NCBI GenBank assembly: GCA_903871765.1
Contig: CAIQIC010000261.1
Span: 1-33,088 of the forward strand
Length of the DNA stretch: 33,088 nucleotides
Reading direction: 5' to 3'
Source of the DNA: an uncultured Lentisphaerota bacterium
GTDB lineage: Bacteria; Verrucomicrobiota; Kiritimatiellia; CAIQIC01
Part shown: positions 10,567 to 28,866 of the stretch, piece after piece
Layout: every line of letters starts with the position of its first letter
Position numbering within the stretch: position 1 is the first letter of the stretch
Translations under genes and position numbers: made by a program
The notes under the pieces: model-generated
What the model was told of the DNA's origin: nothing
Seen by the model: the letters and a program-made list of their open reading frames with translations, nothing else
The model's database searches: none

Positions 10567-10621
10567 GGCATGATTCCTTTCTAAATAATTTCGGATGGTT
10601 GTTGATCGAACGCCGGCCGCC

Positions 10622-11848
10622 TCACAGTTGCCACGGTTCGCGGCGGGCGCGGTCGAGGAAGCGGTTCGCTTCCGCGTCGCCGATGAACTGTTGTTTCGCC
10701 GCATCCCACTTCAGCGAGCGGCCCAGCGCGTAGGCGATGATCCCGAGGTGGCACACGGCCATGGTATTGACGGCCAGCTCGATGTCGCGGAACGGCCGTT
10801 CGCGCGTTTTGACGCAATGCAGGAAGTCGGCACAGATCCCGCCCTTCGCCTTGTACTGCGGGACCGGTTTCGGCTCACGCTTTTCGCCCGGCGTGCCCTC
10901 GACCTGCATATTACCCCGGCCCGGCTTGTTGTGCGTCAACTCGATGCCGTTGGGGTATTTGTAGGACAGGTATTTTTTATCGCCTTCCACCACATAGTTC
11001 ACTTCCGTCGGCTGCAGTTCCCGCACGTCCACGGCAAACGTGGCGCCGCCGAAATGGTGGGCGCCCCAGTCGGTCATGCCGCCGCCGGAGTAGTCGCTGT
11101 AGGAGCGCCAACTGCCGCCGCTGGTCGAGAAATTGCCGTCGCACCGCTGGGGGTTGTAGGGCGCCCAGGGCGCGGGCCCCAGCCACATGTCCCAGTCCAT
11201 GTCCGCGGGGCAGTTCTCGGCAGGCAGGTTGCAGGGCTGGGAGAGCGGGCCGACTTCGACGTTGATCGTCTTGATCGGGCCCAACTCGCCGCCCCAGCAT
11301 GGGCGGACGATGCCGCGGTAATCCTCGAGGACGCGCTGGCTGCCGCCGGACACCACGCGGCCATAGCGGCGCGCGGCTGCGACGACCAGCGCACCCTCGC
11401 GCAGGGTCCGCGTCTCCGGTTTCTGGCAAAACACGTCCTTGCCGGCGCGGCACGCCTCGACGATCATGATCGCATGCCAATGGTCCGGCGTAGCGATGTG
11501 CACCGCGTCAAGGTCTTTGTGAGCGAGCAGGTCCCGGAAGTCGCCGTAGGCCTTGCAGTCGGTGTTGCCGTAATGCTGGTCCACGTTGCTCTTGGCGCCG
11601 TTGCAGACGTTCTTGCGGACGTCACACACGGCCACGTATTGCACGGCCGGGTTGTTGACGAAGGCGCCGAGGTCGCCCCCGCCCATGTTGCCGATGCCGA
11701 TGCCGCCCATCACGATGCGCTCGCTGGGCGGCGGGGTCGTGGCGTCGCCGCGGGCTGACGACGGAATGATGGTGGGAAAGCCCATGGCGACCGTTGCCAA
11801 GCCGGTGGCTTTCAGGAATGTTCGGCGCGTGGTCTTGTACTCGTTCAT
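10622..11848 (-). CDS. Gfo/Idh/MocA family oxidoreductase with Tat-type signal
   Basis: A 408-residue protein. The start at 11848 gives MNEYKTTRRTFLKATGLATV, a clear twin-arginine signal (TRRTFLK), with AGGA 9 nt upstream; longer starts add nothing signal-like. The Rossmann part is MGGIGIGNMGGG (less canonical than GxGxxG), then VQYVAVCDVR and DAVHIATPDHWHA. The usual Glu-Lys-Pro is Gln-Lys-Pro here (FCQKPETRT, residues 142-144); Lys is kept, and the Glu to Gln variant occurs in some PVC relatives. The C-terminal domain has GGGMTDWGAHHFGGA, where the His pair corresponds to the substrate or metal site. Probable periplasmic sugar-modifying oxidoreductase, substrate unknown. The leader at 11849-12099 has a T10 run at 11961-11970. 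Confidence 0.91.
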   Translation of the reverse strand: MNEYKTTRRTFLKATGLATVAMGFPTIIPSSARGDATTPPPSERIVMGGIGIGNMGGGDLGAFVNNPAVQYVAVCDVRKNVCNGAKSNVDQHYGNTDCKAYGDFRDLLAHKDLDAVHIATPDHWHAIMIVEACRAGKDVFCQKPETRTLREGALVVAAARRYGRVVSGGSQRVLEDYRGIVRPCWGGELGPIKTINVEVGPLSQPCNLPAENCPADMDWDMWLGPAPWAPYNPQRCDGNFSTSGGSWRSYSDYSGGGMTDWGAHHFGGATFAVDVRELQPTEVNYVVEGDKKYLSYKYPNGIELTHNKPGRGNMQVEGTPGEKREPKPVPQYKAKGGICADFLHCVKTRERPFRDIELAVNTMAVCHLGIIAYALGRSLKWDAAKQQFIGDAEANRFLDRARREPWQL

Positions 11849-12412: not shown

Positions 12413-13330
12413 ATGAAAAACAAGAAACACGGTGTCGCGTGTTTAAAAACTGCCTGCGCCATGCGGATCCTGCCGCTACTGCTGCTGCTGGCGCTGTCCG
12501 CCGCGGTGCAAGCCGAGGATTATACCTACACGACAAATTCCGATAATACGATCACCATCACGAGCTACACCGGCACCAACGGTGCGGTGACCATCCCCAG
12601 CACGCTCGATGGCCTGCCCGTCACCAGCATCGGGGACGGGGCGTTCTTTAAACGCGCCAACCTGACCAGCGTCACGATCCCCAACAGCGTCACCAGCATC
12701 GGAATATCCGCGTTCTTCATGTGCACCAGCCTGACCAGCGTCACAATCGGCAACAGCGTCACCAGCCTCGGGGATCGGGCGTTCAGCACGTGCAGCAGCC
12801 TGACCAGCATCACAATCGGCAACAGCGTCACCAGCCTCGGGGTGCAGGCGTTCAATCAATGCAGCATCCTGACCAGCGTCACGATCCCCAGCAGCGTCAC
12901 CAGCATCGGGAACCAAGCGTTCTATTTATGCGCCGCCCTGACTGGAGCCTATTTCAAGGGGAACGCCCCCAGCGTTGGTTCGGATGTATTCGTCTTTGAC
13001 AACAATGTAACCGTCTATTACTTGCCGGGAACCACGGGTTGGCCAACACCACCACCAGCGCTCTTTGGCGGTAGGCCGACCGCGCTATGGGCGCTTCCGT
13101 ACCCGCTGATCCTAAACAACGGTCAGGGCTTCGACGTGCAAACCAACGGATTCGCTTTCATCATATCCTGGGCAACAAACATCTCCGTTGTGGTGGAAGC
13201 CTGCACGGACCTAGTCAATCCCGATTGGTCTCCGGTGGCAACCAACACCCTCACCGGCGGCTCGTCCTATTTCAGCGATCCGGACTGGACGAATTACCCC
13301 AGCCGTTTCTACCGCCTCCGTTCGCCGTAA
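12413..13330 (+). CDS. BspA-type leucine-rich repeat surface protein
   Basis: About 305 residues. A signal peptide (MRILPLLLLLALSAAVQAED) sits after a short basic lead; the ATG at 12413 is my choice, with 12461 and 12389 as alternatives. Five 23-residue repeats of the LRR_5/BspA type follow (VTSIGDGAF....LTSVTIPNS), a partial sixth ending in GAYFKGNAPSVGSDVF, and the usual VTVYYLPGTTGW strand. After a linker comes a C-terminal domain ending PSRFYRLRSP. The last 60 residues (ISVVVEACTDLVNPDWSPVATN) resemble a beta-sandwich found at the end of many secreted PVC proteins. BspA-like repeats bind host or matrix proteins in oral bacteria; in free-living PVC bacteria the ligand is unknown. Flanked on both sides by pieces of one radical SAM gene. 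Confidence 0.9.
   Translation: MKNKKHGVACLKTACAMRILPLLLLLALSAAVQAEDYTYTTNSDNTITITSYTGTNGAVTIPSTLDGLPVTSIGDGAFFKRANLTSVTIPNSVTSIGISAFFMCTSLTSVTIGNSVTSLGDRAFSTCSSLTSITIGNSVTSLGVQAFNQCSILTSVTIPSSVTSIGNQAFYLCAALTGAYFKGNAPSVGSDVFVFDNNVTVYYLPGTTGWPTPPPALFGGRPTALWALPYPLILNNGQGFDVQTNGFAFIISWATNISVVVEACTDLVNPDWSPVATNTLTGGSSYFSDPDWTNYPSRFYRLRSP
12620..12964 (+). repeat. 69-bp in-frame tandem repeats
   Basis: Five units start at 12620, 12689, 12758, 12827 and 12896 with GTCACCAGC, exactly 69 bp apart, encoding the 23-residue leucine-rich repeats. The middle units are nearly identical at the DNA level, so unit number could change by slippage or recombination. Confidence 0.9.
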
Positions 13331-18296: not shown

Positions 18297-21227
18297 TCAC
18301 TTCCGACCGCTGACCGTGCCGGCTTGTTCGAGGCCGGGCAAGTCCTCGCGCGGAAGTTCTTGCAACATCGCCGTGACCGGTTCGAAGGTTTTCAGAATCA
18401 TCTGGTAATCTGGATCGTCCGTCGAGGCGAAGACGGCTTTGCCACAGGCTTCCGTGCCGCCCACCTGCTTGGCGAGCGGCGCTAGCAGAAAATTATTTAA
18501 CTGCGGATTGGTGATGCGGGTGTAGAATTTGCGTGGAAGGCCTTGCGGGTGGCAGCCGGCGCAACGCGTTGCGGCAATCTTCTTCAGCGTGGCGTCAAGT
18601 TCGAGCGGGAACAGGTGCCGGCATCCCATGGTGTTAGGATAGCTGGAATACGAAGTCGGGTAGTAGGGCACATTGAGATCAATCCACGCCATCACGCGGC
18701 GTCGGCTCGGCCGGTCCATCTGGACACGAGGTTGGCCCTGGGCGTCGGGATGTCCGGCCAAAATCAAACCGGCCAGTTTGCTGGCCGGCGACCCCCACGT
18801 CTTGGGCTGGACCATGAGGATGTTGTACTCCGCGCCATTGATGCTGGAAATCCAACTCGTGTACGGGCTGCGGCCCTCCTCCCCGCTGGAGAGGGCGACG
18901 CCATGCACTTCGGGATGCAGTTCACCCAGCGTACCCTTGCGCGCGAGGATGTCGTAGGAGACATTGAAGAAGTCGGTCATGTCGCCGCTGAGATCGACGC
19001 CCTTGGGTGAGGCGCGCGCATTGTGGCATTGGATGCAGTAACGGTCCAGCACGGGCTGCACGACGGCCCGGTAGCTGAAGCCCTGCCAACCCCATTCGGG
19101 TCGTTGCAGCTCTTGGACGGCGGTGCTCGCGGTCAATCGGCTCCTGGGTGTAGCGTAGTTGCGTTCGGTATGGCAGCCGGTGCAGCTCTGCACTTCGCCC
19201 GGCATCAGGTGCGTGAACGTCCGCATCCGTTGGACGGCGCGCCCGTGCTGGTCGAGCGCCAGGAAGTAGATGGGCACCTCCGCCGGCACTTTGAAGCAGG
19301 CTGAGCCGTCCGTGTTCACCTCGGCATAGCCCCAGACCTTTTTCGGCGCGTACGTCGCGCCGCAGGACACCAGCGGGAACTGAAAACCAAACGCCGAGTT
19401 CGCCGCATAGCCGCTGCAGCCGGGGACTTGTGTGTACAGCGGCACAAACTTGCTCTTCTCGATTTCCTGCACCACGGCGATCTGTTTGATCTCGCCACGC
19501 GGCACGTGAGGTTCGAGCCCCTGATAGACATCGGAGAGGAAAACAGTAGCCCACGACCCCTGCGGTTCGGCCGGCAACACCGACGGAATCACCGGCGGCC
19601 GGACGCGCGGCATCAGTGGCCGCGGGCTGTAGAAGCCCATCCCGCCGTTGGGGCGCAACAACGTGGCCGGGCTGGTGCCGTCGAAATCACGGAGTTGGAG
19701 GGAACCCTGACGCGACACGAGGTAGTGCCGGTCGTCGATGGGGTAGGGCGTTTCGTACGGGCCATCCAAGCCGTTGCCGAAAACGTCGCTCACCCGGAAA
19801 ATGTCCACTTCCGGCGTGACAATGCGAATGGCTTCCTTCGCGTTGGCGCCCCGGCGGACGTCGATGACGCAGATGCCGCCGCGGCGGTCGCCGTTGTGAT
19901 TGGTCGCCAGCGCGAGGACCTTCGTGGTGCCGGGGATGGCGTGGGCTTCCATGAGCGTGCCGGGCGCGAGCATCCGGTTCTTAAAGTACCCGGCCAACCC
20001 GGTGCCGTCGGGATGGATCGTCCACAGGCTCTGAATCGGACACGCCCCGCGGTCCACGTACTCCCACCGGGTGTAGACGATCCGTCCGTCGTTTAACACC
20101 GCCGGCGTGAAATCCATCAAGTAGTTCGACGACAGCCGGCGCTGGCGCGAACCGTCGCGCTCCATGCGATACAGCACGGGTGAGGTTGTCACAAAGCAAT
20201 AGGCATAGGCCGGCTTGCGGTCGGACAGAAACGCAATACCGCCGTCGGGCAGCCAGCAGGCATCCAGATTGTTGTGCGGGCCGTCGGTCAACTGCGTCAG
20301 GGCGGTGCCGTCGATGTTGATCCGGTAAACTTGGTAGTTCTCCTCCGGCACGGTCCGGTCGTGCTCGGTGGTTTGCTCCCAGAGTCCGCGCTGCAACACC
20401 GTACCCCTCCGTTTCCACGAGAACACAACCGCCTTGGCGTCATAGGAAAGATCGCAGTCGATGATTTCGCCCTCCGGCGACGCCACGAGCTCGCGCAGCT
20501 TGCCGCCGCCGGGTCCCGGCGCCCACACATACAAACCGCCGCCGGGCTGGAACCCTTCAGCGTGGTACACGTAAACGTGCGAAAGATGCATCGAGTGGCG
20601 TTTGATGACGAGCAGGTCACGGAAGCCCAACGCACCGCGCGCCAGCGTGTCCGCGAGCGGACTCGTCGGCACGAGCAGTTTGGCGAGCTGTTCGTCCGTA
20701 GGACTCGATGGGTACACGGCAATTTCCGACGCGCCCGGATTATGCGGCCCGTAGGAATTGAGGAACTTCAAGCGGAGCTTCTGCAAGCGCCGCGGGGCGA
20801 TCGCGATGCGTTGCGGCCCGTGCACCATCTGGAAGCTGCCCCTGGCGACCGGCTGCGTGTCGCCGTCACAGTAAACTTCGTAATCCTTCCAGCATTCCGT
20901 GAGGATCTGTGCCGTGCGCCCGAAATAGACCAGCTCCGCCACCGCGATCGGCGCCGGCCATTCGAGCGTAAACTCGGCCTGGTCGCCGGCCGTGGCACGG
21001 TGAATGCACCAGGCCTGCCGGACATCACATTTGCTGTCGGCTTCGGGAACCATGCCGTCGACGGCATAACGTGCCGCGTACTCGTCGCTGAACTCCGACG
21101 ACGCCCAGACCTTGGCCTTCGGTGCGAGATTTTCCGGCAGCGCCGCCATCGAACAGGCCGTGGCTCCAACGAACAACAGGAAAACCAGCGCGTGCTGGAT
21201 CGTCTCTTTCTGCCGGGTGCATTCCAT
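18297..21227 (-). CDS. HzsA-related protein: F5/8-like, PD40 propeller, three CxxCH heme motifs
   Basis: About 976 residues. A signal peptide (HALVFLLFVGATACSMA) is followed by an F5/8 type C-like domain (NLAPKAKVWASSEFSDEYAARYAVDG, to about residue 180). A propeller with PD40/WD40-like blades comes next (YQVYRINIDGTALTQLTDGPHNNLDACWLPDGGIAFLSD, LYRMERDGSRQRRLSS, IYTIHPDGTG-type). The last third holds three CxxCH heme sites: CTGCH near residue 680, CIQCH near 730 and CAGCH near 888. This architecture matches proteins annotated as HzsA-related after the hydrazine synthase alpha subunit, widespread in PVC bacteria that do not perform anammox; none has a proven reaction to my knowledge. There is no DUF1549/DUF1553 partner, the usual neighbour of planctomycetal cytochromes. 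A TTG at 21236 would add three residues. I see no operon partner: the gene is convergent with GH16. Confidence 0.88.
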   Translation of the reverse strand: MECTRQKETIQHALVFLLFVGATACSMAALPENLAPKAKVWASSEFSDEYAARYAVDGMVPEADSKCDVRQAWCIHRATAGDQAEFTLEWPAPIAVAELVYFGRTAQILTECWKDYEVYCDGDTQPVARGSFQMVHGPQRIAIAPRRLQKLRLKFLNSYGPHNPGASEIAVYPSSPTDEQLAKLLVPTSPLADTLARGALGFRDLLVIKRHSMHLSHVYVYHAEGFQPGGGLYVWAPGPGGGKLRELVASPEGEIIDCDLSYDAKAVVFSWKRRGTVLQRGLWEQTTEHDRTVPEENYQVYRINIDGTALTQLTDGPHNNLDACWLPDGGIAFLSDRKPAYAYCFVTTSPVLYRMERDGSRQRRLSSNYLMDFTPAVLNDGRIVYTRWEYVDRGACPIQSLWTIHPDGTGLAGYFKNRMLAPGTLMEAHAIPGTTKVLALATNHNGDRRGGICVIDVRRGANAKEAIRIVTPEVDIFRVSDVFGNGLDGPYETPYPIDDRHYLVSRQGSLQLRDFDGTSPATLLRPNGGMGFYSPRPLMPRVRPPVIPSVLPAEPQGSWATVFLSDVYQGLEPHVPRGEIKQIAVVQEIEKSKFVPLYTQVPGCSGYAANSAFGFQFPLVSCGATYAPKKVWGYAEVNTDGSACFKVPAEVPIYFLALDQHGRAVQRMRTFTHLMPGEVQSCTGCHTERNYATPRSRLTASTAVQELQRPEWGWQGFSYRAVVQPVLDRYCIQCHNARASPKGVDLSGDMTDFFNVSYDILARKGTLGELHPEVHGVALSSGEEGRSPYTSWISSINGAEYNILMVQPKTWGSPASKLAGLILAGHPDAQGQPRVQMDRPSRRRVMAWIDLNVPYYPTSYSSYPNTMGCRHLFPLELDATLKKIAATRCAGCHPQGLPRKFYTRITNPQLNNFLLAPLAKQVGGTEACGKAVFASTDDPDYQMILKTFEPVTAMLQELPREDLPGLEQAGTVSGRK

Positions 21228-21273
21228 TCTGGTCAACGATATTACATCCGCCGGCCCCGCTGGCCAACAGAAT

Positions 21274-21400: not shown

Positions 21401-21450
21401 TGGCGAAGAACAGCGACAGACCTGGCGGCGCGACGGCCCGACCCTCAGAA

Positions 21451-21515
21451 CAGGACTGGTAAGCAGCCCCCAACTGGGCGATTCGTTGGTTCTTGACAGA
21501 ATCGTTGGAATCCAT
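21451..21515 (-). pseudogene. 5' fragment of a tyrosine recombinase gene (copy A)
   Basis: An ATG at 21515 opens the peptide MDSNDSVKNQRIAQLGAAYQ, matching MNSNDSVKAQRIAQFWAAYK of the longer fragment at 22340-22540. After about 25 codons the similarity ends and the frame runs into unrelated sequence. Only the start codon, ribosome site and first helix of the integrase N-terminal domain are left. Together with its leader it forms a 98-nt repeat with copy B. Confidence 0.6.
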
Positions 21516-21548
21516 ACACTTCCGCCATGGTTGGTAGCAGCATATCAG
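21451..21548. repeat. 98-nt direct repeat, copy A (partner 22476-22573)
   Basis: Aligns without gaps to 22476-22573 with about 14 differences by hand count. It covers the integrase start codon, the sequence CTTCCGCCATGGTTGGTAGC upstream of it, and ends at TATCAG in both copies. Beyond both ends the copies diverge abruptly. Confidence 0.85.
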
Positions 21549-21572
21549 GTAGTCGCTCAGAATTGAGGATAT

Positions 21573-21992
21573 ATGACTGTCGATGAAGTATCAATCGGAG
21601 GCACCAAGGCTCGTGTGACCCGTGAAAAGAACGCCATTCACATCCGGATATTGACATTATTTACGGATGAAGCTGCATTGGCGATGACCACCTACCTCGA
21701 CGGGATTCTTGCCGAGACACCGGGTCCCATAACTCGGATATGGGATGCAACCATGCTGCCCACAGAAAGCTTTAAGTTAACAGCACCGGGTATATCGACG
21801 ATAGGAATATGGGGAAAGAAGATATTTCGAGAAAGACCTGGGTCAAAAGCCTATTTCATCGCGCCGAGTGAACTAATCTTTGGACTATCCAGAATGTACC
21901 AAATCTTAACCGACGACGAGGGCGCTGATGTCGAGGTGTTGCATAGTGTCGATGAGCTGCCGACAGAGCTGCGCCAGATGATACGCCCATAA
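21573..21992 (+). CDS. STAS/SpoIIAA-like small protein
   Basis: A 139-residue soluble protein without signal peptide. The pattern fits the STAS-like group: a first strand IHIRILTLFTDEAALAMTTYL, then TRIWDATML (the WD strand), AYFIAPSELIFGLSRMYQIL and a last strand VEVLHSVDELPTELRQM. Relatives with FGxARMxQ...V.VF.D..EA are often labelled hypothetical or STAS/SEC14-like; they are thought to mediate protein interactions. It lacks an obvious phospho-acceptor serine. Base composition is clearly poorer in GC than the carbohydrate genes, like the cassette genes downstream. It lies between the two recombinase fragments. GAGG about 6 nt before the ATG supports the start. No attC follows it, so whether it was a cassette is unproven. 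Confidence 0.65.
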   Translation: MTVDEVSIGGTKARVTREKNAIHIRILTLFTDEAALAMTTYLDGILAETPGPITRIWDATMLPTESFKLTAPGISTIGIWGKKIFRERPGSKAYFIAPSELIFGLSRMYQILTDDEGADVEVLHSVDELPTELRQMIRP

Positions 21993-22000
21993 AACCGAAC

Positions 22001-22339
22001 CGCCAATATCACCGCATTCTGGAACGGCTTCGCAGGGCGGCTGAACGGGATCGCCAAGCCCTTTATGCCGCCATACCCAAGGACTTCAAGGAACGGGTTG
22101 AGGGCGTCACGATACGGTTCGAGGATGTGCCGTCGAAGCAGATGATGGAACAGGGGGTGTCGCCCGAAGCCCTCAGCAACACGGACAGGGAGAGCAAAGA
22201 GGTGGTCATTTTCGTCATGAACCTGTTTGAGCGGCATGGGAAAGCGCCGGGGCAGTTCAAGCGGGAGTTGCGGCGGGCGATGGTGAACGAACTGGCGGAA
22301 TTAGCGGGGTTGGAGGGAGGTTGGGCAGCGGAGGATTGA
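22001..22339 (+). pseudogene. Degenerate zincin_1 (PF06262)-like metallopeptidase without HExxH
   Basis: An open frame with no usable start before a GTG at 22127 reads LYAAIPKDFKERVEGVTI, FEDVPSKQMMEQGVSPEAL, VVIFVMNLFERHGKAPGQF and KRELRRAMVNELAELAGLEG. This tracks the small predicted zinc metallopeptidases of PF06262 across the whole domain, including the acidic linker and the final helix. In that family the last helix carries HExxH (HELGHYLGL). Here it is NELAELAGL, so both zinc ligands are replaced. There is no ATG or ribosome site at the expected beginning, and the frame overlaps the end of the preceding gene. I take it as an inactive relic; a non-catalytic protein started at GTG is possible. 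It ends exactly where the recombinase fragment begins. Confidence 0.55.
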
Positions 22340-22540
22340 CAAAAAGCGTAAGAAAAGCAGGATATCGGCTGCTGAGCGACCCCGCAACTTCTTATCCTGT
22401 TGAAAATAAACGAATTCCTGCACCCAGCGGACGTAGAAAACCGACCGCTGGGGCTGAACCTTGTTGGCCTCAACGCAGGACTTGTAAGCGGCCCAAAACT
22501 GGGCGATCCTTTGGGCCTTGACAGAGTCGTTGGAATTCAT
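22340..22540 (-). pseudogene. 5' fragment of a tyrosine recombinase / integron-type integrase gene (copy B)
   Basis: Starting at the ATG at 22540, 66 residues match the N-terminal SAM-like (core-binding) domain of tyrosine recombinases: FWAAYKSCVEANKVQPQRS, then FYVRWVQEFVYFQQDKKLRGRSAADILLFLRFLS. In integrases this is followed by the catalytic R..HxxR..Y domain; here the frame turns into unrelated residues near 22340 and stops at 22301. It is oriented away from the cassettes, as intI genes are in integrons. GGCGGAAG lies just upstream of the ATG. With no catalytic domain it cannot act. IntI identity is inferred from the attC sites next to it, as the N-terminal domain alone does not separate IntI from XerC/D types. 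Confidence 0.68.
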
Positions 22541-22573
22541 GATCTTCCGCCATGGTTGGTAGCAGCCTATCAG
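22476..22573. repeat. 98-nt direct repeat, copy B (partner 21451-21548)
   Basis: Same orientation and length as copy A, about 86 percent identical by hand. Holds the integrase start region and leader. Confidence 0.85.
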
Positions 22574-22664
22574 AATAGATATAAAGCTGCTAGGCCGTTC
22601 ATCTGATGGTTGCTAGGAGTACGTCCACTGAGCAGGATGTTCGAAATAGAGAAAGGAAATAAGT
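22574..22664 (+). promoter_or_regulatory. Candidate attI / cassette promoter region
   Basis: The region between the divergent integrase start and the first cassette gene, where integrons keep attI and often the cassette promoter. It contains GTTCGAA at 22639-22645, which resembles the right-hand ends of the attC sites that follow (GTTCGAC, GTTCGCC, GTTCGCT). AGAAAGGAAATAAGT supplies the ribosome site of the first cassette gene. Position and the GTT triplet are the only evidence. Confidence 0.4.
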
Positions 22665-22901
22665 ATGGACAAGACGCATGATCGTCGTTTCTTGGGAATG
22701 CTGGGATTTCTAGGATTCCTCGGATTCCTTGGATTCTTAGGCTCTGAGAATTACCAGCATCTGGCCCGATTTGCATGGCTTGCATCTTTCGCTGGTTTCT
22801 CCTGCTTTGTTTTTATTCCGCGACAGGCAGCGAAGATAGATCCGCGGTATCGCTTGGATAGCGTAGCGGACATATTCTCTGCGTTGGCCGGACGCAAGTG
22901 A
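22665..22901 (+). CDS. Cassette gene 1: small membrane protein with GFLGFL repeats
   Basis: 78 residues. After a charged lead (MDKTHDRRFLG) comes a segment made of the tripeptide-like repeat LGFLGFLGFLGF, encoded by near-identical 9-nt DNA units, then NYQHLARFAWLASFAGFSCFVFI, which makes a second hydrophobic helix. The tail is polar (DPRYRLDSVADIFSALAGRK). Similar LGFLGFLGF openings occur in small DUF3796-like membrane proteins, but the similarity may reflect composition only. The start has AAAGGAAAT 8-9 nt upstream. It is the first gene after the candidate attI and is followed after 9 nt by an attC. Function unknown. Confidence 0.72.
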   Translation: MDKTHDRRFLGMLGFLGFLGFLGFLGSENYQHLARFAWLASFAGFSCFVFIPRQAAKIDPRYRLDSVADIFSALAGRK

Positions 22902-22910
22902 CCGATCTTT

Positions 22911-23001
22911 CGAACAAGCCGGCTGCACCGAACGCCGGGATCGGGCCGCGGTTTCATTCTGAGCGTCATTGGCCCGGCGTCGGTGAGCCGGGACGTTCGA
23001 C
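22911..23001 (+). repeat. attC site 1
   Basis: Left end CGAACAAGCCGG, right end GGGACGTTCGAC. Arms CCGGCTgCACCGaACGCCGGG and its complement pair fully except for the two lower-case extra bases on the left arm. A loop of about 33 nt separates the arms. Unpaired left-arm bases are the extrahelical bases that define attC strand choice in integrons. Confidence 0.75.
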
Positions 23002-23055
23002 GGCGCTATTGCGCGAAAGTTTCTAAGAAATGGCTGCGTTGCGTGTTACGTCTAT

Positions 23056-23670
23056 ATGAAAACGATATTCAACATGAAAACTCTTGCTCATTTTCTCGTC
23101 ATCGCCGGCGTGGGTGCCTCCCTGGCAATAGCTCCGGCAGAAGAGCCCAAGGCCGTCCTACGGCAGGTGGAGGAGACCCTAAAGCCGGTCCTGGCTGGTC
23201 TCGCTCCCACGCCAACTGTTGAATATTCGGCGGTGTACAGCGATTGTTTGGTCGTGCAGTATCGACCCCAGAGGTTCATGGTGCACCCACACCGCAGTGG
23301 CTTCTTCGGCGGGTGGAGCACGAATCTGGTTGAGGAAATCGGTCCCAGTGATAGAGGGTTCGTCCTGCGCGTTTTCGCGCCGCAGGGCGAGGTGCAACAA
23401 CCGCCGACACCCCAGACGGTACAAGAGTCTTATTGGTGGACCTTTTTCAACAAAACTTTCATTGCCGGGACGACGAACAAAATCGTCTGGACGTTGTCCT
23501 ATGGCGTTGACACGGACGCGAAGCTGTTGGCGAGCCTGAAGCGGGCGCTGGGGAGTTTGGCCGGAAACAGTACGAAGAACAAGGCCGAACCAGACGGTTC
23601 AGCCAACGGGAGCCAGCCAATTCGCTCAGAGACAAATCGAACGTCATCGGCGGCTGGCTCCCGTCGCTGA
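23056..23670 (+). CDS. Cassette gene 2: secreted protein of unknown function
   Basis: 204 residues. A signal peptide is visible in LAHFLVIAGVGASLAIAPAEE; the start may be 23056 or the ATG at 23074, and neither has a good ribosome site. A compact domain at about residues 30-165 holds VEYSAVYSDCLVVQYRPQRF, HRSGFFGGWSTNLVEEIGPS, GFVLRVFAPQGEVQQP and a last helix KLLASLKRALGSLAG. I do not recognise the family. The final 40 residues are polar and charged, and their codons lie inside attC site 2: the stop at 23668 falls within the right arm. Such read-through into attC is common in cassette genes and suggests this tail is not part of the fold. Confidence 0.68.
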   Translation: MKTIFNMKTLAHFLVIAGVGASLAIAPAEEPKAVLRQVEETLKPVLAGLAPTPTVEYSAVYSDCLVVQYRPQRFMVHPHRSGFFGGWSTNLVEEIGPSDRGFVLRVFAPQGEVQQPPTPQTVQESYWWTFFNKTFIAGTTNKIVWTLSYGVDTDAKLLASLKRALGSLAGNSTKNKAEPDGSANGSQPIRSETNRTSSAAGSRR

Positions 23671-23684
23671 CCTTTGCGTTCGCC
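23584..23684 (+). repeat. attC site 2
   Basis: Left end GCCGAAC, right end GCGTTCGCC. The inner arms ACGGGAGCCAGCC and GGCTGGCTCCCGT pair perfectly. The outer arms GGTtCAGC and GCTGACC pair with one extra left-arm base, and one further extra base lies between the two blocks. The site overlaps the 3' end of cassette gene 2. Confidence 0.68.
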
Positions 23685-23690
23685 TGCAAC

Positions 23691-23987
23691 ATGACCGAAG
23701 CCAAGCAAACGTTCCGGCTCTCTGAACTGCAAAGCGCCCTTGGATGGGTTGTTTTGGTCCAAGTCGTCATCCTTATGCTGACTGCTCTCCTCTTGGATGG
23801 AGGCTACTGTGGTCGGATTTGCGGGTGCGCGATGGGCGGATACTGGCTGATGCTCGGTTGGCTAGCCCTCCGTCGCAGGAATGCGCTCACTGCAACAGAC
23901 GCAGTCCTGATTCGGTATGGATTCATTATTTGGTTGATGATCGCTTTTTTGGTGGAGATGACATTGGAGTATTTCTTACATGTATGA
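23691..23987 (+). CDS. Cassette gene 3: three-helix membrane protein
   Basis: 98 residues with three predicted membrane helices: WVVLVQVVILMLTALLLDG, AMGGYWLMLGWLAL and YGFIIWLMIAFLVEMTLEYF, joined by short loops; RRRN after helix two gives an inside-positive loop. A CGRICGC cysteine cluster sits before helix two. No family recognised. The ATG is only 6 nt from the right end of attC site 2, leaving little room for a ribosome site, so it may depend on upstream translation. attC site 3 begins 4 nt after the stop. Confidence 0.7.
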   Translation: MTEAKQTFRLSELQSALGWVVLVQVVILMLTALLLDGGYCGRICGCAMGGYWLMLGWLALRRRNALTATDAVLIRYGFIIWLMIAFLVEMTLEYFLHV

Positions 23988-23991
23988 ATCG

Positions 23992-24083
23992 GCGAACAAA
24001 CCGGATGCAGTGAACCCCGCGATTGCGTCTCAGTTGCATTTCGGCTACCAGTGGCGCGGGGTCACTGATCCGGAACGTTAGGA
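23992..24083 (+). repeat. attC site 3
   Basis: Left end GCGAACAAACCGG, right end CCGGAACGTTAGGA, the closest of the set to the classical GTTRRRY core. Arms CCGGATgCAGTGAaCCCCGCG and CGCGGGGTCACTGATCCGG pair throughout, again with one G and one A extra on the left arm at the same places as in site 1. The loop is about 33 nt. Confidence 0.82.
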
Positions 24084-24087
24084 CGCT

Positions 24088-24444
24088 ATGTGTAAAATTA
24101 TACTCATCCCTGCTGTGCTTCTGGTTCTTGCCGGTTGTACGGAAAGGGAAAAGCGGTATACGGAGCAAGATGTCAACCGATTCGCCATGGAGAGCTTCGT
24201 GCGCAACAGGAGTTCACACACGCTCCAGAGCGTCGCAGTATTGGAGCAACTTCGGCAAGGATCGGTATCCAACGCGATTGAAAGGATTGAATCACACCTT
24301 GATAAAGACATCGAGCAGTTGCGATTTGTGTTAAAGCAGGCGAACATTTCGGACACCTCTCGCACTCAGGTTCAGGTGGTGCTGTCTAGAGCGGAGGCTT
24401 ACCGAGCTCAGTATCCACGCCCGACGATGGAGCAGAAGAAATGA
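24088..24444 (+). CDS. Cassette gene 4: small lipoprotein
   Basis: 118 residues. A lipoprotein signal MCKIILIPAVLLVLAGC has the lipidated Cys at residue 17 after LVLAG. The rest is helical and charged (QDVNRFAMESFVRNRSSHTL, VSNAIERIESHLDKDIEQLRFVLKQA), compatible with a coiled coil or helical hairpin on the inner face of the outer membrane. No family recognised. It starts 4 nt after attC site 3 and ends 7 nt before attC site 4, the tight packing typical of cassettes. Confidence 0.76.
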   Translation: MCKIILIPAVLLVLAGCTEREKRYTEQDVNRFAMESFVRNRSSHTLQSVAVLEQLRQGSVSNAIERIESHLDKDIEQLRFVLKQANISDTSRTQVQVVLSRAEAYRAQYPRPTMEQKK

Positions 24445-24451
24445 TAAGGCG

Positions 24452-24515
24452 GCCTAACAACGCGCTCAAGCGTGACCGGACGAAGCGCCCGGCCGCTTAG
24501 CGCGAGTCGTTCGCT
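24452..24515 (+). repeat. attC site 4 (short)
   Basis: Left end GCCTAAC fits the classical RYYYAAC core. The arms CGCGCTcAAGC and GCTTAGCGCG pair with one extra left-arm C; the right end is GTTCGCT. Loop about 25 nt with its own GC-rich hairpin. At 64 nt it is close to the shortest attC class. Confidence 0.7.
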
Positions 24516-24535
24516 AACGACGAGAGGATGAAAAG

Positions 24536-24874
24536 ATGACAAAAAGAATTGAACGATTGGCGATCGTCGTGTTGATCCTTTGGGTTGTCAGTTTAATCCC
24601 CAATCCCCTGACAACGATTGTGGCTGCCCGAATGTACGGACACTACGAGTTCCAACAGTTCCACTTTCTGAAATCAGCATTGGCGTCCGCCAGTCTTCTC
24701 CTCTCTTGGGCTGTGAACATTGCGGTTGGCATCTGGCTTTTTCTGGAGGCCAAGCGAGGCCAAAAAACAAAGTGGCTATGGCTCCTCTTTGGCATCGTGT
24801 TCGGTCTCGTAGCCGTCGCGCTGTTTGTTTTGCTCCAAATTCAAGAGGATTTGAAAACCAGTAAACAAGATTGA
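24536..24874 (+). CDS. Cassette gene 5: three-helix membrane protein
   Basis: 112 residues: helix one LAIVVLILWVVSLIPNPLTT, helix two SALASASLLLSWAVNIAVGIWLFL, a KRGQKTKW basic loop, and helix three LWLLFGIVFGLVAVALFVLLQI. The tail is polar (QEDLKTSKQD). The basic loop between helices two and three suggests a cytoplasmic location for it. No family recognised. GAGAGGATGAAAAG provides a ribosome site before the ATG. attC site 5 follows directly. Confidence 0.74.
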   Translation: MTKRIERLAIVVLILWVVSLIPNPLTTIVAARMYGHYEFQQFHFLKSALASASLLLSWAVNIAVGIWLFLEAKRGQKTKWLWLLFGIVFGLVAVALFVLLQIQEDLKTSKQD

Positions 24875-24876
24875 AC

Positions 24877-24940
24877 GGCGAACCAGATTTTTGACCGTGA
24901 CGGCTCACACGTTCGCCGCGGGTCAAAAGCGCCGTTGGCC
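24877..24940 (+). repeat. attC site 5 (short)
   Basis: Left end GGCGAACCAGA, right end GCGCCGTTGGCC. Arms TTTTGACC and GGTCAAAA pair fully, with the outer bases weaker. The loop of about 20 nt contains CACACGTTCGCC. The site is shorter and less perfect than sites 1-3 but lies in the expected place. Confidence 0.58.
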
Positions 24941-24963
24941 ATTTTAGAAGAAAGGAAATATGA

Positions 24964-26004
24964 ATGAACCGAAACATGTTTCTGTGCATGGTTACACTGA
25001 CAATTATGCTCAGCGGTTGCTCAACATACCGGCGAGGAACAGCGCTCACCAACTCACAATGGCTGGAGCTGACTTCGGTTGGCGGCGGGACTGAGAGCCG
25101 GTTGGCGATCAACCATTGGCCGTATGACAAGTATCCGAACCTGCCGGAGATAACCCCAAGATCGAACACGGTGGTGCTGGATGCAGACGGACCGGGGGTG
25201 GTTACAATGTTTCATGTCAGCAAGTACGGTGGAGGCGACCAGGGCGCACTGATTCTGCGGGTTTGGTACGATGGCGAAAACAAGCCCTCAATAGAGATGC
25301 CGTATATGGATTTTCTTGGTGATCCAGAGGCCAAAACAGCATATTTCGCCACCGTGTACTTTTCGCATGTAAAGGAGTCCCACAATCTCCGGTTGCCGAT
25401 GCCGTTTCGCAGGCACATCCACATAGAAGTGAAAAATCCGACGGACAGCAAGTTCAGCGGTTATACGGAAATACAGTGGAAAAAGGTCAAAGCATTACCT
25501 GAAGAAACTGGTTACCTACGCGTGGCCTACCGCACAGGTTCGCCGACCATTCCTGAAGAGATCATTGAAGCCTGCAACATTCAAGGGGCGGGTGTGATTG
25601 TGGCCCACTGGCTACAAGTAGCGGCAGACCATCCAATGGCTAAGAAAAGTGATCTTATCTGTGAAGCTAACCAGGAGATCTACCTGGACGGGAGCAGGGA
25701 ACCGCAGATGGAATATCTTGGCACGGAAGACTGTTACGGTTATTCGTGGGGCATGGCCGGCGGTATTCAATCGGACCATTACGCGGCCATCACGCGTATT
25801 GAAGATTACAAGTCGGGCGGTTTGTTCACCATGTTGCGTTGCCGCGGGATTGACACAATCAGCTTCGATAAAACCTGCCGTTGGGTGATCAATTACCAGA
25901 ATGAATTCTTCTCGGCCCGGGAATTGACAAAACAGCCCCGCCTTCACAACCGGGCTTCTTTCCCCATGCCTTACCGGAGCGCGATTTACTACTACGGCAA
26001 CTAA
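24964..26004 (+). CDS. Cassette gene 6: GH172/DUF2961-family lipoprotein
   Basis: 346 residues with a lipoprotein signal (MVTLTIMLSGC, Cys19). The body matches DUF2961: DGPGVVTMFHVSKYGGGDQ, ALILRVWYDGENKPSIEMPY with MDFLG, LPMPFRRHIHIEV, and near residues 252-262 LGTEDCYGYSWG, the family's GTED motif. Its glutamate is, as far as I recall, part of the active site of characterised GH172 members. Those cleave alpha-fructofuranosyl or alpha-arabinofuranosyl linkages; the substrate here is unknown. Length is near the family minimum. AAAGGAAATATGA precedes the ATG. It begins 24 nt after attC site 5. At over 1 kb it is the largest gene in the array and an uncommon load for a cassette. Confidence 0.85.
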   Translation: MNRNMFLCMVTLTIMLSGCSTYRRGTALTNSQWLELTSVGGGTESRLAINHWPYDKYPNLPEITPRSNTVVLDADGPGVVTMFHVSKYGGGDQGALILRVWYDGENKPSIEMPYMDFLGDPEAKTAYFATVYFSHVKESHNLRLPMPFRRHIHIEVKNPTDSKFSGYTEIQWKKVKALPEETGYLRVAYRTGSPTIPEEIIEACNIQGAGVIVAHWLQVAADHPMAKKSDLICEANQEIYLDGSREPQMEYLGTEDCYGYSWGMAGGIQSDHYAAITRIEDYKSGGLFTMLRCRGIDTISFDKTCRWVINYQNEFFSARELTKQPRLHNRASFPMPYRSAIYYYGN

Positions 26005-26018
26005 CCATAATAAAGATG

Positions 26019-26043
26019 GCCAACAACACCTCGGACGTTAGCG
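26019..26043 (+). repeat. Possible collapsed attC remnant
   Basis: GCCAACAACACC resembles an attC left end (compare GCCTAACAACGCGC), and it is joined directly to TCGGACGTTAGCG, which resembles a right end (compare GGGACGTTCGAC). The stem and loop are missing. It stands where the attC of cassette 6 is expected. Confidence 0.35.
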
Positions 26044-26586
26044 TCGCTGGCCGCGCCGAAACGTCAAGGTGAACATTGACGCCGCAGCCGCCACTGCACA
26101 ACCCGTCGGCCCCGGCCAAGCCGACTTCAAGCACACCGGAGCCAACCGATCAGCAGCGATAAACCGTCAAGCGGAGGGCGGGGATAGTCCCCCCTCCGCT
26201 GCTGCCCCTGCCGTCTAGCGGGCCGCGGGGGACTCCCGCCGTGCCGGGCCGGTCTCCTGTCCGCCGCCCGCAGCCAGCGCCCTGCCAGATCGCACAGGAT
26301 GCCCCACGTTGGGCGATCCGCCTGCCGATCCGCCTCCGGCCTGCCCCCCCCTTTGCACGTCCCACCGCATCCGTATCGCGCCTTGGGCATCATGGATGCG
26401 AAATCCGCCCGCCTACACCCCATGCCCCGGATATACGCACAATCTGACGAAGACCGGCTGCTACCTTTATGCTGCCGGTTCGAGCCTCATTCAGGACGGG
26501 AAGGTAACCGCCAGCAAGGGAAGCAACGGGCAAGGCGTAATGGCGAATAGCCTTGTATTCATTGGTGAAATAGCCGGATTCAAGCG
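26044..26586. other. Intergenic region between cassette array and tRNA-Tyr
   Basis: About 540 nt without a recognisable gene. A short frame reading NIDAAAATAQPVGPGQADFK up to a stop at 26216 and a later frame with GCYLYAAGSSLIQDGKVTAS look like protein-derived debris but match nothing I know. A GC-rich hairpin is noted separately. Confidence 0.4.
26170..26200. repeat. GC-rich hairpin
   Basis: AGCGGAGGG and CCCTCCGCT arms enclose GGGGATAGTCCCC. It is stable on either strand but has no T-run after it, so a terminator role is unsupported. Confidence 0.5.
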
Positions 26587-26763: not shown

Positions 26764-28857
26764 TCATTCCTCTGCGAGCGCCAGGATCTGGAACAGATTG
26801 CTATAGTCATCGGTCCAGGGGCGAAACCTGGCGGGCATCTTGGCCGGGCGCATGGGCGCGTCTTTGAAGCTGGGGGCCTCAAACCACGCCTGGTGGGATG
26901 TCACCAGCACCCAGGTGGACGAAGAGTAATAAGACTCCTCGTCGTCTTCAATCTCGTCCTCGATGACCATCGCCTGTTTGCCCAACGCCTGGGCAGCGCC
27001 CAGACACACCGGCTCAAGGTTGAGGTACTTATTCGAAATGTGCAGCGCCAGGATGCCGTTGGGCTTCAAATGGCGGAAGTAAAGTTGGGCGGCCTCGCGC
27101 GTCAGCAAGTGCACGGGGATGGCGTCGCTGGAAAACGCATCGACGGCGAGCAGGTCGTAATGCTGCGTTTCCTGGTGTTCCAGGGTCAGCCGCGCGTCGC
27201 CCATCAGGATTTGTTTATCGGCCCCCGCATGGGCATAAAACGTGAACAGCGTTTGCGCGATCTGCTCCACCAGCGGATTGATTTCGTAGATCCGGAAGAC
27301 GTCGCCGGTACGCCCGTAGTTCGACAGGACGCCCGCGCCCAAGCCGATGATTCCGACGCGTACCGGGCCCTGGGCCTGGATCGCCTGCAGCGCGCGGCCA
27401 ATGCCGGAGTGCTCCCCATAGTACGAGGTCGCGGTGTAGTGCCGCGCCGGGTCGAGCAGTTGGGCGCCGTGGTCAATGGTGCCGTGCGACAAGGTGCGCA
27501 CGGGGTAATTCTCCGTAGGAGCATCGTCACGCACCGCCAGCGGTCCATAGAAGTTGCGGGCTTGGAACAGCAGACCCTGGTGGCTGGCGCGTTCCTGGCG
27601 TGCGGCGTATACGGCCAGCGCTACCACGCCCAGCCCCCAGCCCAACCGCAGCGGCCAGGCGGCGAACTTCGACCATGGCAGACGCCAGATCGCGAGCAGG
27701 GCGAGCACACCGCAAGCGATCAGGCCCAGCGGCAGTTCCAGGTACGTGGTGAAGACGTGGGGCGCGAGCAGGGCCACAAAGATGCCGCCCAAGGCCCCGC
27801 CGAGCGAAACCATCAGATAAAAGAGTGTCAGGTGGCGCGGCGCGGGACGACGACGGGCGAGTTCTCCGTGACACACCATGCAACAGACAAAAAGACCCGC
27901 TGAAAATCCGGGGATCGCCCACTTGATCGAGAGATTTCGCCCGTCGGCATGCAGCATGTAGACCATGCCGCCCAGGGCCACGGCCAGCAACGGGAGGAAC
28001 AACCAGCGCGGGTACAGGCGCTCGCTTTCAAAGGCCATGATGAATGTCGCCAGATACAGCACGAGCGGGATGACCCATAACAGCGGGATCGGCGCGACGT
28101 TTTCGCTCATCTGGTTGGTCACGGAAACCAGCAGCACCGAGGCACACGCGGCGAGGAGCACCCAAAACAAGAGCTGCGCGCCGCCGGGGCGCGCGGACAC
28201 GGTGGCCGCCGTGGAAACATCCGTCGTTGCGGCCGCCACGGGCGCCTGGGCGGGCGCGGCCTCCGGCGCAGAGCCCCGGCTCACCCAGGCGGTGACCACA
28301 CACATCAGCGCAAAGGCGACGTACCCTGCGCTCCAGGCATACGCCTGCCACCGCGAGGCCAGCCGGGGTTCGACGAGAAACGGAAAACTCACCAGCGCGA
28401 GCAGGGAACCGAAATTCGACAGCGCGAAGAGCCGGTAAGGCATGCCCGAGCCGGACCGCCGCACGTACCACGCCTGCAACAATGGGCTGGTCGCCGAGAG
28501 CAGGAAGTAGGGCAGTCCAATGGTCGCGCCGAGGACGGTAAGAATGCGGAAGGTGGGATCGCCCGGGACGGTCGGACGCCACGCAGGTGACGGAAGAATC
28601 GGCAACAGCGCGCAACTGATCAGCAGTAGCGCCACATGGACGATCAGTTGCCAACGCGCCTTCATGAAACGAATGGAAACGTGCGCGTAGGCGTAGCCCG
28701 CCAGCAACACCAGTTGAAAAAACAACAGGCTGGCGCTCCACACGGCAGCGGACCCGCCGAACCAAGGCAAAATGATTTTGGCAATCAGCGGCTGAACCTG
28801 AAACAAAAGGAACGCGCTCAGAAAGATGGTAACGGCGTATAAACCGACCTTGCGCAT
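26764..28857 (-). CDS. Membrane-fused spermidine-synthase-like protein
   Basis: About 697 residues. The first 440 form some twelve membrane helices (LYAVTIFLSAFLLFQVQPLIAKIILPWFGG at the start, a signature of these fusions). The rest is a SAM-binding Rossmann domain: VGIIGLGAGVLSNYGRTGD (glycine loop), FRIYEINPLVEQIA (acidic ribose-binding residue), ILMGDARLTLE, and YDLLAVDAFSSDAIPVHLLT, which corresponds to the catalytic-Asp region of polyamine synthases. Such fused proteins are common in Planctomycetes and Verrucomicrobia. None is proven to make spermidine, and a role in methyl or aminopropyl transfer at the membrane is only a guess. The ATG at 28857 gives the expected N-terminus; an upstream GTG at 28866 is possible. 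The next gene upstream on this strand is the SGNH hydrolase. Confidence 0.9.
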   Translation of the reverse strand: MRKVGLYAVTIFLSAFLLFQVQPLIAKIILPWFGGSAAVWSASLLFFQLVLLAGYAYAHVSIRFMKARWQLIVHVALLLISCALLPILPSPAWRPTVPGDPTFRILTVLGATIGLPYFLLSATSPLLQAWYVRRSGSGMPYRLFALSNFGSLLALVSFPFLVEPRLASRWQAYAWSAGYVAFALMCVVTAWVSRGSAPEAAPAQAPVAAATTDVSTAATVSARPGGAQLLFWVLLAACASVLLVSVTNQMSENVAPIPLLWVIPLVLYLATFIMAFESERLYPRWLFLPLLAVALGGMVYMLHADGRNLSIKWAIPGFSAGLFVCCMVCHGELARRRPAPRHLTLFYLMVSLGGALGGIFVALLAPHVFTTYLELPLGLIACGVLALLAIWRLPWSKFAAWPLRLGWGLGVVALAVYAARQERASHQGLLFQARNFYGPLAVRDDAPTENYPVRTLSHGTIDHGAQLLDPARHYTATSYYGEHSGIGRALQAIQAQGPVRVGIIGLGAGVLSNYGRTGDVFRIYEINPLVEQIAQTLFTFYAHAGADKQILMGDARLTLEHQETQHYDLLAVDAFSSDAIPVHLLTREAAQLYFRHLKPNGILALHISNKYLNLEPVCLGAAQALGKQAMVIEDEIEDDEESYYSSSTWVLVTSHQAWFEAPSFKDAPMRPAKMPARFRPWTDDYSNLFQILALAEE

Positions 28858-28866
28858 ATGACCCAC

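Follow-up and report, generated by a model that had tools for sequence, protein, structure and literature searches.

Clusters of at least two attC sites lying close together, without a neighbouring integron integrase gene (intI), are classed as CALIN elements under the IntegronFinder definition (PMC9024848; PMC8618304) and have been proposed to be degraded integrons (PMC9024848). In Xanthomonas, the chromosomal integrons have repeatedly undergone loss or truncation of intI while the array was kept, and more CALINs are found elsewhere in the genome (PMC12444791). A chromosomal integron is also known from Lentisphaera araneosa, where it is listed with regard to the integrase and its regulation (PMC3108266). 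The locus described here belongs to a draft metagenome-assembled genome (MAG) of an uncultured Lentisphaerota bacterium (3.9 Mb in 573 contigs, 82% complete), and the window that we analysed is the whole of one of its contigs (C261, CAIQIC010000261.1; 33,088 nucleotides).

With four strong and two weaker attC sites, and with only a 68-codon stub as its neighbouring intI, the locus is by definition a CALIN and most likely a degraded integron; an intact intI beside the array, which marks a complete integron, was not found. It differs from CALIN elements in that the intI stub and a candidate attachment site (attI) are still visible and tell the route by which it originated, and in that a second contig of the genome (C138) keeps the same module. 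It resembles the Xanthomonas integrons in its lost or truncated intI, its retained array and the presence of other attC arrays in the genome, but it lies in a different phylum, its integrase belongs to a long type that carries an additional SAM-like domain at the N-terminus, and its genome is a MAG. L. araneosa likewise provides an integron in the Lentisphaerae, whereas the present locus is without an integrase. The class 1 integrons of plasmids have the same attC architecture, and their sites can be aligned with, and are recovered by, the same model. In contrast to them, the present locus is chromosomal, has no recognised resistance genes, belongs to the long integrase type and often has an R' of the form GTTCGxx rather than GTTRRRY. 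Since CALINs, intI loss in Xanthomonas and the Lentisphaera integron were already known, the structure is a sound further example of a kind that is not new.

A simple scan for AAC and GTT combined with a fold gave many false matches in GC-rich genes and was dropped, and a covariance model (R1) was therefore built from 18 attC sites, with 16 base pairs. No sequence of the window entered the model, which was trained on sites of relatives, of plasmid-borne class 1 integrons and of a different contig of this genome. In the alignment 85% of the cells pair, and in 12 of the 16 pairs both partners have changed. When the window was searched with filters off, R1 gave four clear matches of 25.6-40.4 bits, all on the + strand, within 1.6 kb and inside the interval in which the first-pass annotation had placed an integron-like cassette array. 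These are attC1 (22909-23001; 33.6 bits), attC2 (23584-23684; 28.6 bits), attC3 (23991-24083; 25.6 bits) and attC4 (24452-24515; 40.4 bits, E 9.6e-9). All four fold as attC sites do, with R''/R' cores and extrahelical bases, and folding of their bottom strands as DNA gave z scores of -5.0 (-4.97), -4.7, -3.0 (-2.99) and -2.9, respectively. The best R1 score in a negative control of 80 non-integron loci (345 kb) was 13.6 bits. A non-array match in the GC-rich flank of the window (10605-10670, - strand) reached 17.1 bits and was taken as background.

Two further sites on the + strand are weaker. By score alone attC5 (24877-24940; 15.8 bits) is at the level of this background, and its bottom strand folds no better than shuffled sequences (z about 0). 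The second, attC6 (26018-26081; 16.4 bits, z -2.5, more exactly -2.47), ends the array and has lost the GTT of its right core, which reads ATTGACG. Of the class 1 attC sites held outside the training set as a positive control, two scored 44.1 and 34.3 bits and one only 18.9 bits. A genuine but divergent site may thus have a low score, and attC5 and attC6 therefore need evidence other than the score. For attC6, a span of 53 bp (26020-26072) is 90.6% identical to the terminal attC of a one-cassette array in another genome of the same family (G003). At first attC6 was taken for a 33-nt site with an internal deletion, but its homologues in G003 and in a further genome (G122) show that it has its full length and that its right core is mutated. 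The inverted repeats seen at first reading are thus attC-type hairpins, and the unpaired bases on their left arms were confirmed, but they number six and not five, the one at 26018-26081 having gone uncounted. The single-strand folding that had been suggested as a check agreed for attC1-4 and attC6 but not for attC5.

An integron cassette was once a circle, and its start (GTTxxxx) should therefore pair with the R'' of its own attC, which may lie as much as a kilobase farther downstream, and not with the core that it faces in the array. In the window, the six cassettes match in this way at 4, 3, 4, 3, 3 and 4 of the four outer bases (21/24), whereas the cores facing each other in place match at only 11 of 20. 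The five cassettes of C138 each match at 4/4, giving 20/20. Random re-pairing of both arrays never reached the observed 41/44 in 200,000 trials; for the window alone 2 of 720 re-pairings reach the observed count, which is modest, so that the strong figure needs C138. In both arrays the start of the first cassette was placed knowing the expected match, and without those two the counts are 17/20 in the window and 16/16 in C138. The boundary of cassette 1 was chosen partly for its match, and the same CAGGATGTT context marks the boundary in C138. In cassette 6 the start (GTTGGCC) and the R'' (GGCCAAC) lie 1.1 kb apart and match perfectly, and the R'' of attC5 agrees with the start of its own cassette at three of the four outer bases. 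Such complementarity between own start and own R'' is the signature of circular cassettes and supports the sites at 24877 and 26018 despite their low scores. The window holds a real array of six integron gene cassettes.

The six same-strand genes described earlier are all present, one to each cassette. Cassette 1 (22640-22995) encodes a DUF3796-like membrane protein (ORF 22665-22901; Pfam PF12676, 27.2 bits, over the cut-off), cassette 2 (22996-23678) a secreted protein whose ORF runs into attC2 (23056-23670), cassette 3 (23679-24077) a small membrane protein (23691-23987), cassette 4 (24078-24509) a lipoprotein-like product (24088-24444), cassette 5 (24510-24934) another small membrane protein (24536-24874) and cassette 6 (24935-26074) a lipoprotein-like DUF2961 protein (24964-26004; PF11175, 111.7 bits), all on the + strand. 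A PADLOC search of the cassette proteins detected no defence family. The interval first assigned to the array and recombinase gene, 22476-26043, needs adjustment at both ends, as the recombinase stub ends at 22540 and the array near 26081.

A congener (G001) lacks homologues of cassettes 2, 5 and 6, as do almost all of 240 genomes of the class, and the DUF2961 cassette had no relative in the genome-collection search. The homologue of cassette 2 in G047 and those of cassette 5 in G086, G017 and G212 have an attC directly 3' of the gene (25.8-63.9 bits), and these gene families thus appear again, as cassettes with an attC tail, in other families of the class. The attC2 site is 94% identical, over almost exactly the attC length, to a site in G122 (L121:454-555) that lies behind a different gene. 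Near-identical attC hairpins (91%) are likewise attached to different genes on C138 (L010:9919-9984) and at another locus (L088:440-504). Neither a miss by the attC model nor a fixed gene order in relatives, the two outcomes named at the outset as speaking against an integron, was found, and the integron/CALIN reading is upheld by the model matches, the complementarity at the cassette boundaries and the patchy distribution of the cassettes.

The gene previously called a truncated tyrosine recombinase is indeed a stub on the opposite strand (22337-22540, -), made up of the first 68 residues of ORF 22301-22540 (-). Over these residues the stub shares 44-47% identity with the N-terminal ends of ~450-aa proteins found in three genomes of the class (47% in G058); these proteins possess a second, canonical SAM-like domain and a catalytic part (Pfam SAM_4 in two stretches). 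On TIGR02249, which has a cut-off of 265, the sister integrase of G096 reaches 476.7 bits; the stub is therefore intI and derives from the extra N-terminal SAM-like domain. Most full-length integron integrases of the class are 425-523 aa long, with an N-terminal extension of ~100-170 aa (L111-L113, L115, L042, L043, L048, L058), and in the one integrase tested the extension holds a second SAM-like core-binding domain. The integrase of a Thiodictyon plasmid is also long (454 aa). A full-text literature search returned no description of such an N-terminal extension.

Next to the stub lies the candidate attI (22541-22645, +), with a probable insertion point G^TTCGAA at 22639 and a core that matches the R'' of attC1. 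The segment 22363-22615 is 77% identical to positions 7453-7706 of C138, the shared stretch reaching from codon ~59 past the start codon and into the attI region. A shorter copy of the stub-attI module spans 21402-21560. It comprises an intI remnant of the same type (21402-21515, -; first ~38 codons, 59% identity over 37 aa to the 22337-22540 stub) and an attI-like segment with a degenerate core (21516-21572, +), recognised by alignment with the second copy and C138; at the DNA level 21443-21548 and 22468-22573 are 84% identical. In all three stub copies TTGACA stands at the same place within the opening codons of intI and is directed towards the array, with a -10 that is good on C138 and in the shorter copy and poor in the one adjoining the array. 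These motifs suggest a promoter in the 5' end of intI that would express the first cassettes. Between the two attI copies, a 139-aa ORF (21573-21992, +) with no Pfam match, and with no attC found after it, is possibly a remnant cassette. The adjacent 21992-22339 encodes a fragment resembling a zincin-like metallopeptidase, with its start missing (PF06262, 15.9 bits, below the cut-off).

A TIGR02249 search of the genome gave no match on C261 but detected a nearly complete intI on C446 (372.8 bits), whose N-terminus is cut by the contig end; a C-terminal integrase fragment is present on C292. The absence of an integrase claimed by the first-pass annotation therefore holds for the locus, with its 68-codon stub, but not for the genome. 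The search for more attC sites that it had called for gave at least 25 of at least 20 bits (R1) on 15 contigs, a lower bound, as 150 of 3517 candidates were scored. Four of these are in the window and five on C138, and the others are mostly single and often near contig ends. On C138 the stub-attI module stands ahead of five perfect cassettes. A sixth, cut by the contig end (L010:9983-10049), recurs on C532 (L092:128-194) with an identity of 66/67 bp that starts exactly at the T after G^TT, and its left neighbour on C532 is different and is not an attC. This is one cassette caught at two places, and the C532 copy is a possible attG-type insertion. C532 also shares with the window a 48-bp repeat (90% identity), found just outside the array (26273-26320) and, mutually inverted, near the C532 attC (L092:828-875).

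The dispersal of attC sites over 15 contigs, together with a cassette on C532 that starts exactly at the TT of G^TT beside something other than an attC, would also fit an array built by off-target (attG-type) insertion, with IntI acting in trans at a locus that never had its own integrase. This account is already disfavoured by the intI stub, which lies in the canonical divergent orientation and adjoins an attI segment common to C138, and we regard it as improbable. It might also be argued that the cell has a complete integron and that intI is missing only because the stub was wrongly assembled onto unrelated DNA, since arrays break MAG assemblies and the intI of C446 is itself cut at its N-terminus by a contig end. 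However, the stretch that the stub shares with C138 stops at almost the same point (codon ~59-68) on two separate contigs, and the same-family genome G003 has a pseudogenised copy, a frameshifted intI remnant of the same kind next to its one-cassette array with an attC6-like end, which makes an assembly error highly improbable. An ordinary operon with terminator hairpins between its small genes, as their tight packing on one strand might suggest, is already refuted by hairpins that match an independent attC model with extrahelical bases and core sites, by their own-cassette complementarity and by the clean negative control, and terminator-like sites are few (3 found vs 6.5 expected).

The surroundings of the array agree with two other points made at first reading. 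The GC content is 0.50-0.56 over about 21.0-26.0 kb compared with 0.60-0.70 across most of the flanks, as had been noted. The proposed PVC-type chromosome is supported by the right-flank gene (26764-28866, -), which shares 77-80% identity with its counterparts in two genomes of the same family, one deposited as 'uncultured Lentisphaerae bacterium' (CAITZM010000116.1); this also argues against mis-binning of the contig. Homology to these two genomes stops with that gene, and no empty site was found in them. Adjoining the array is a heme-protein-like gene (18297-21236, -) for a 979-aa protein with a match to the hydrazine synthase alpha middle domain (PF18582, 76.8 bits) and a CXXCH motif match below the cut-off. 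Further to the left, 12619-12942 is a tandem repeat with a 69-bp step and copies ~78% alike. An Rfam search of the window returned tRNA only.

We consider it very likely that the locus is a chromosomal integron in which the array has outlived the integrase. Circular cassettes would have been inserted one by one at the G^TT of the candidate attI (22639) by an integron integrase recognising the folded bottom strand of attC. A later deletion or rearrangement would then have taken the adjacent intI except for its first 68 codons, leaving the stub, attI and six cassettes. We infer this order, with intI deleted after the array was built; the rearrangement itself cannot be reconstructed from a draft MAG in 573 contigs. 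The cassettes would now be immobile except through an integrase working in trans, such as the enzyme of C446. Of the sites, attC1-4 should still be substrates, whereas attC5 is weak and attC6 has lost its right core. It is conceivable, though rather doubtful, that the integron system of this group works mainly in trans, such that the long integrases, in which the core-binding domain is duplicated, serve several intI-less stub-attI arrays and scattered single cassettes across one chromosome, and that the stub and attI are kept in several copies for the cassette promoter.

The locus extends the well-documented decay of integrons to an uncultured lineage related to the Lentisphaerae. Its genome can be used to ask whether arrays without intI stay mobile in trans and how one attC hairpin comes to lie behind unrelated genes, as with attC2 and its 94% identical counterpart in G122. 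The long integrases of the class, with their two SAM-like domains, deserve attention in their own right.
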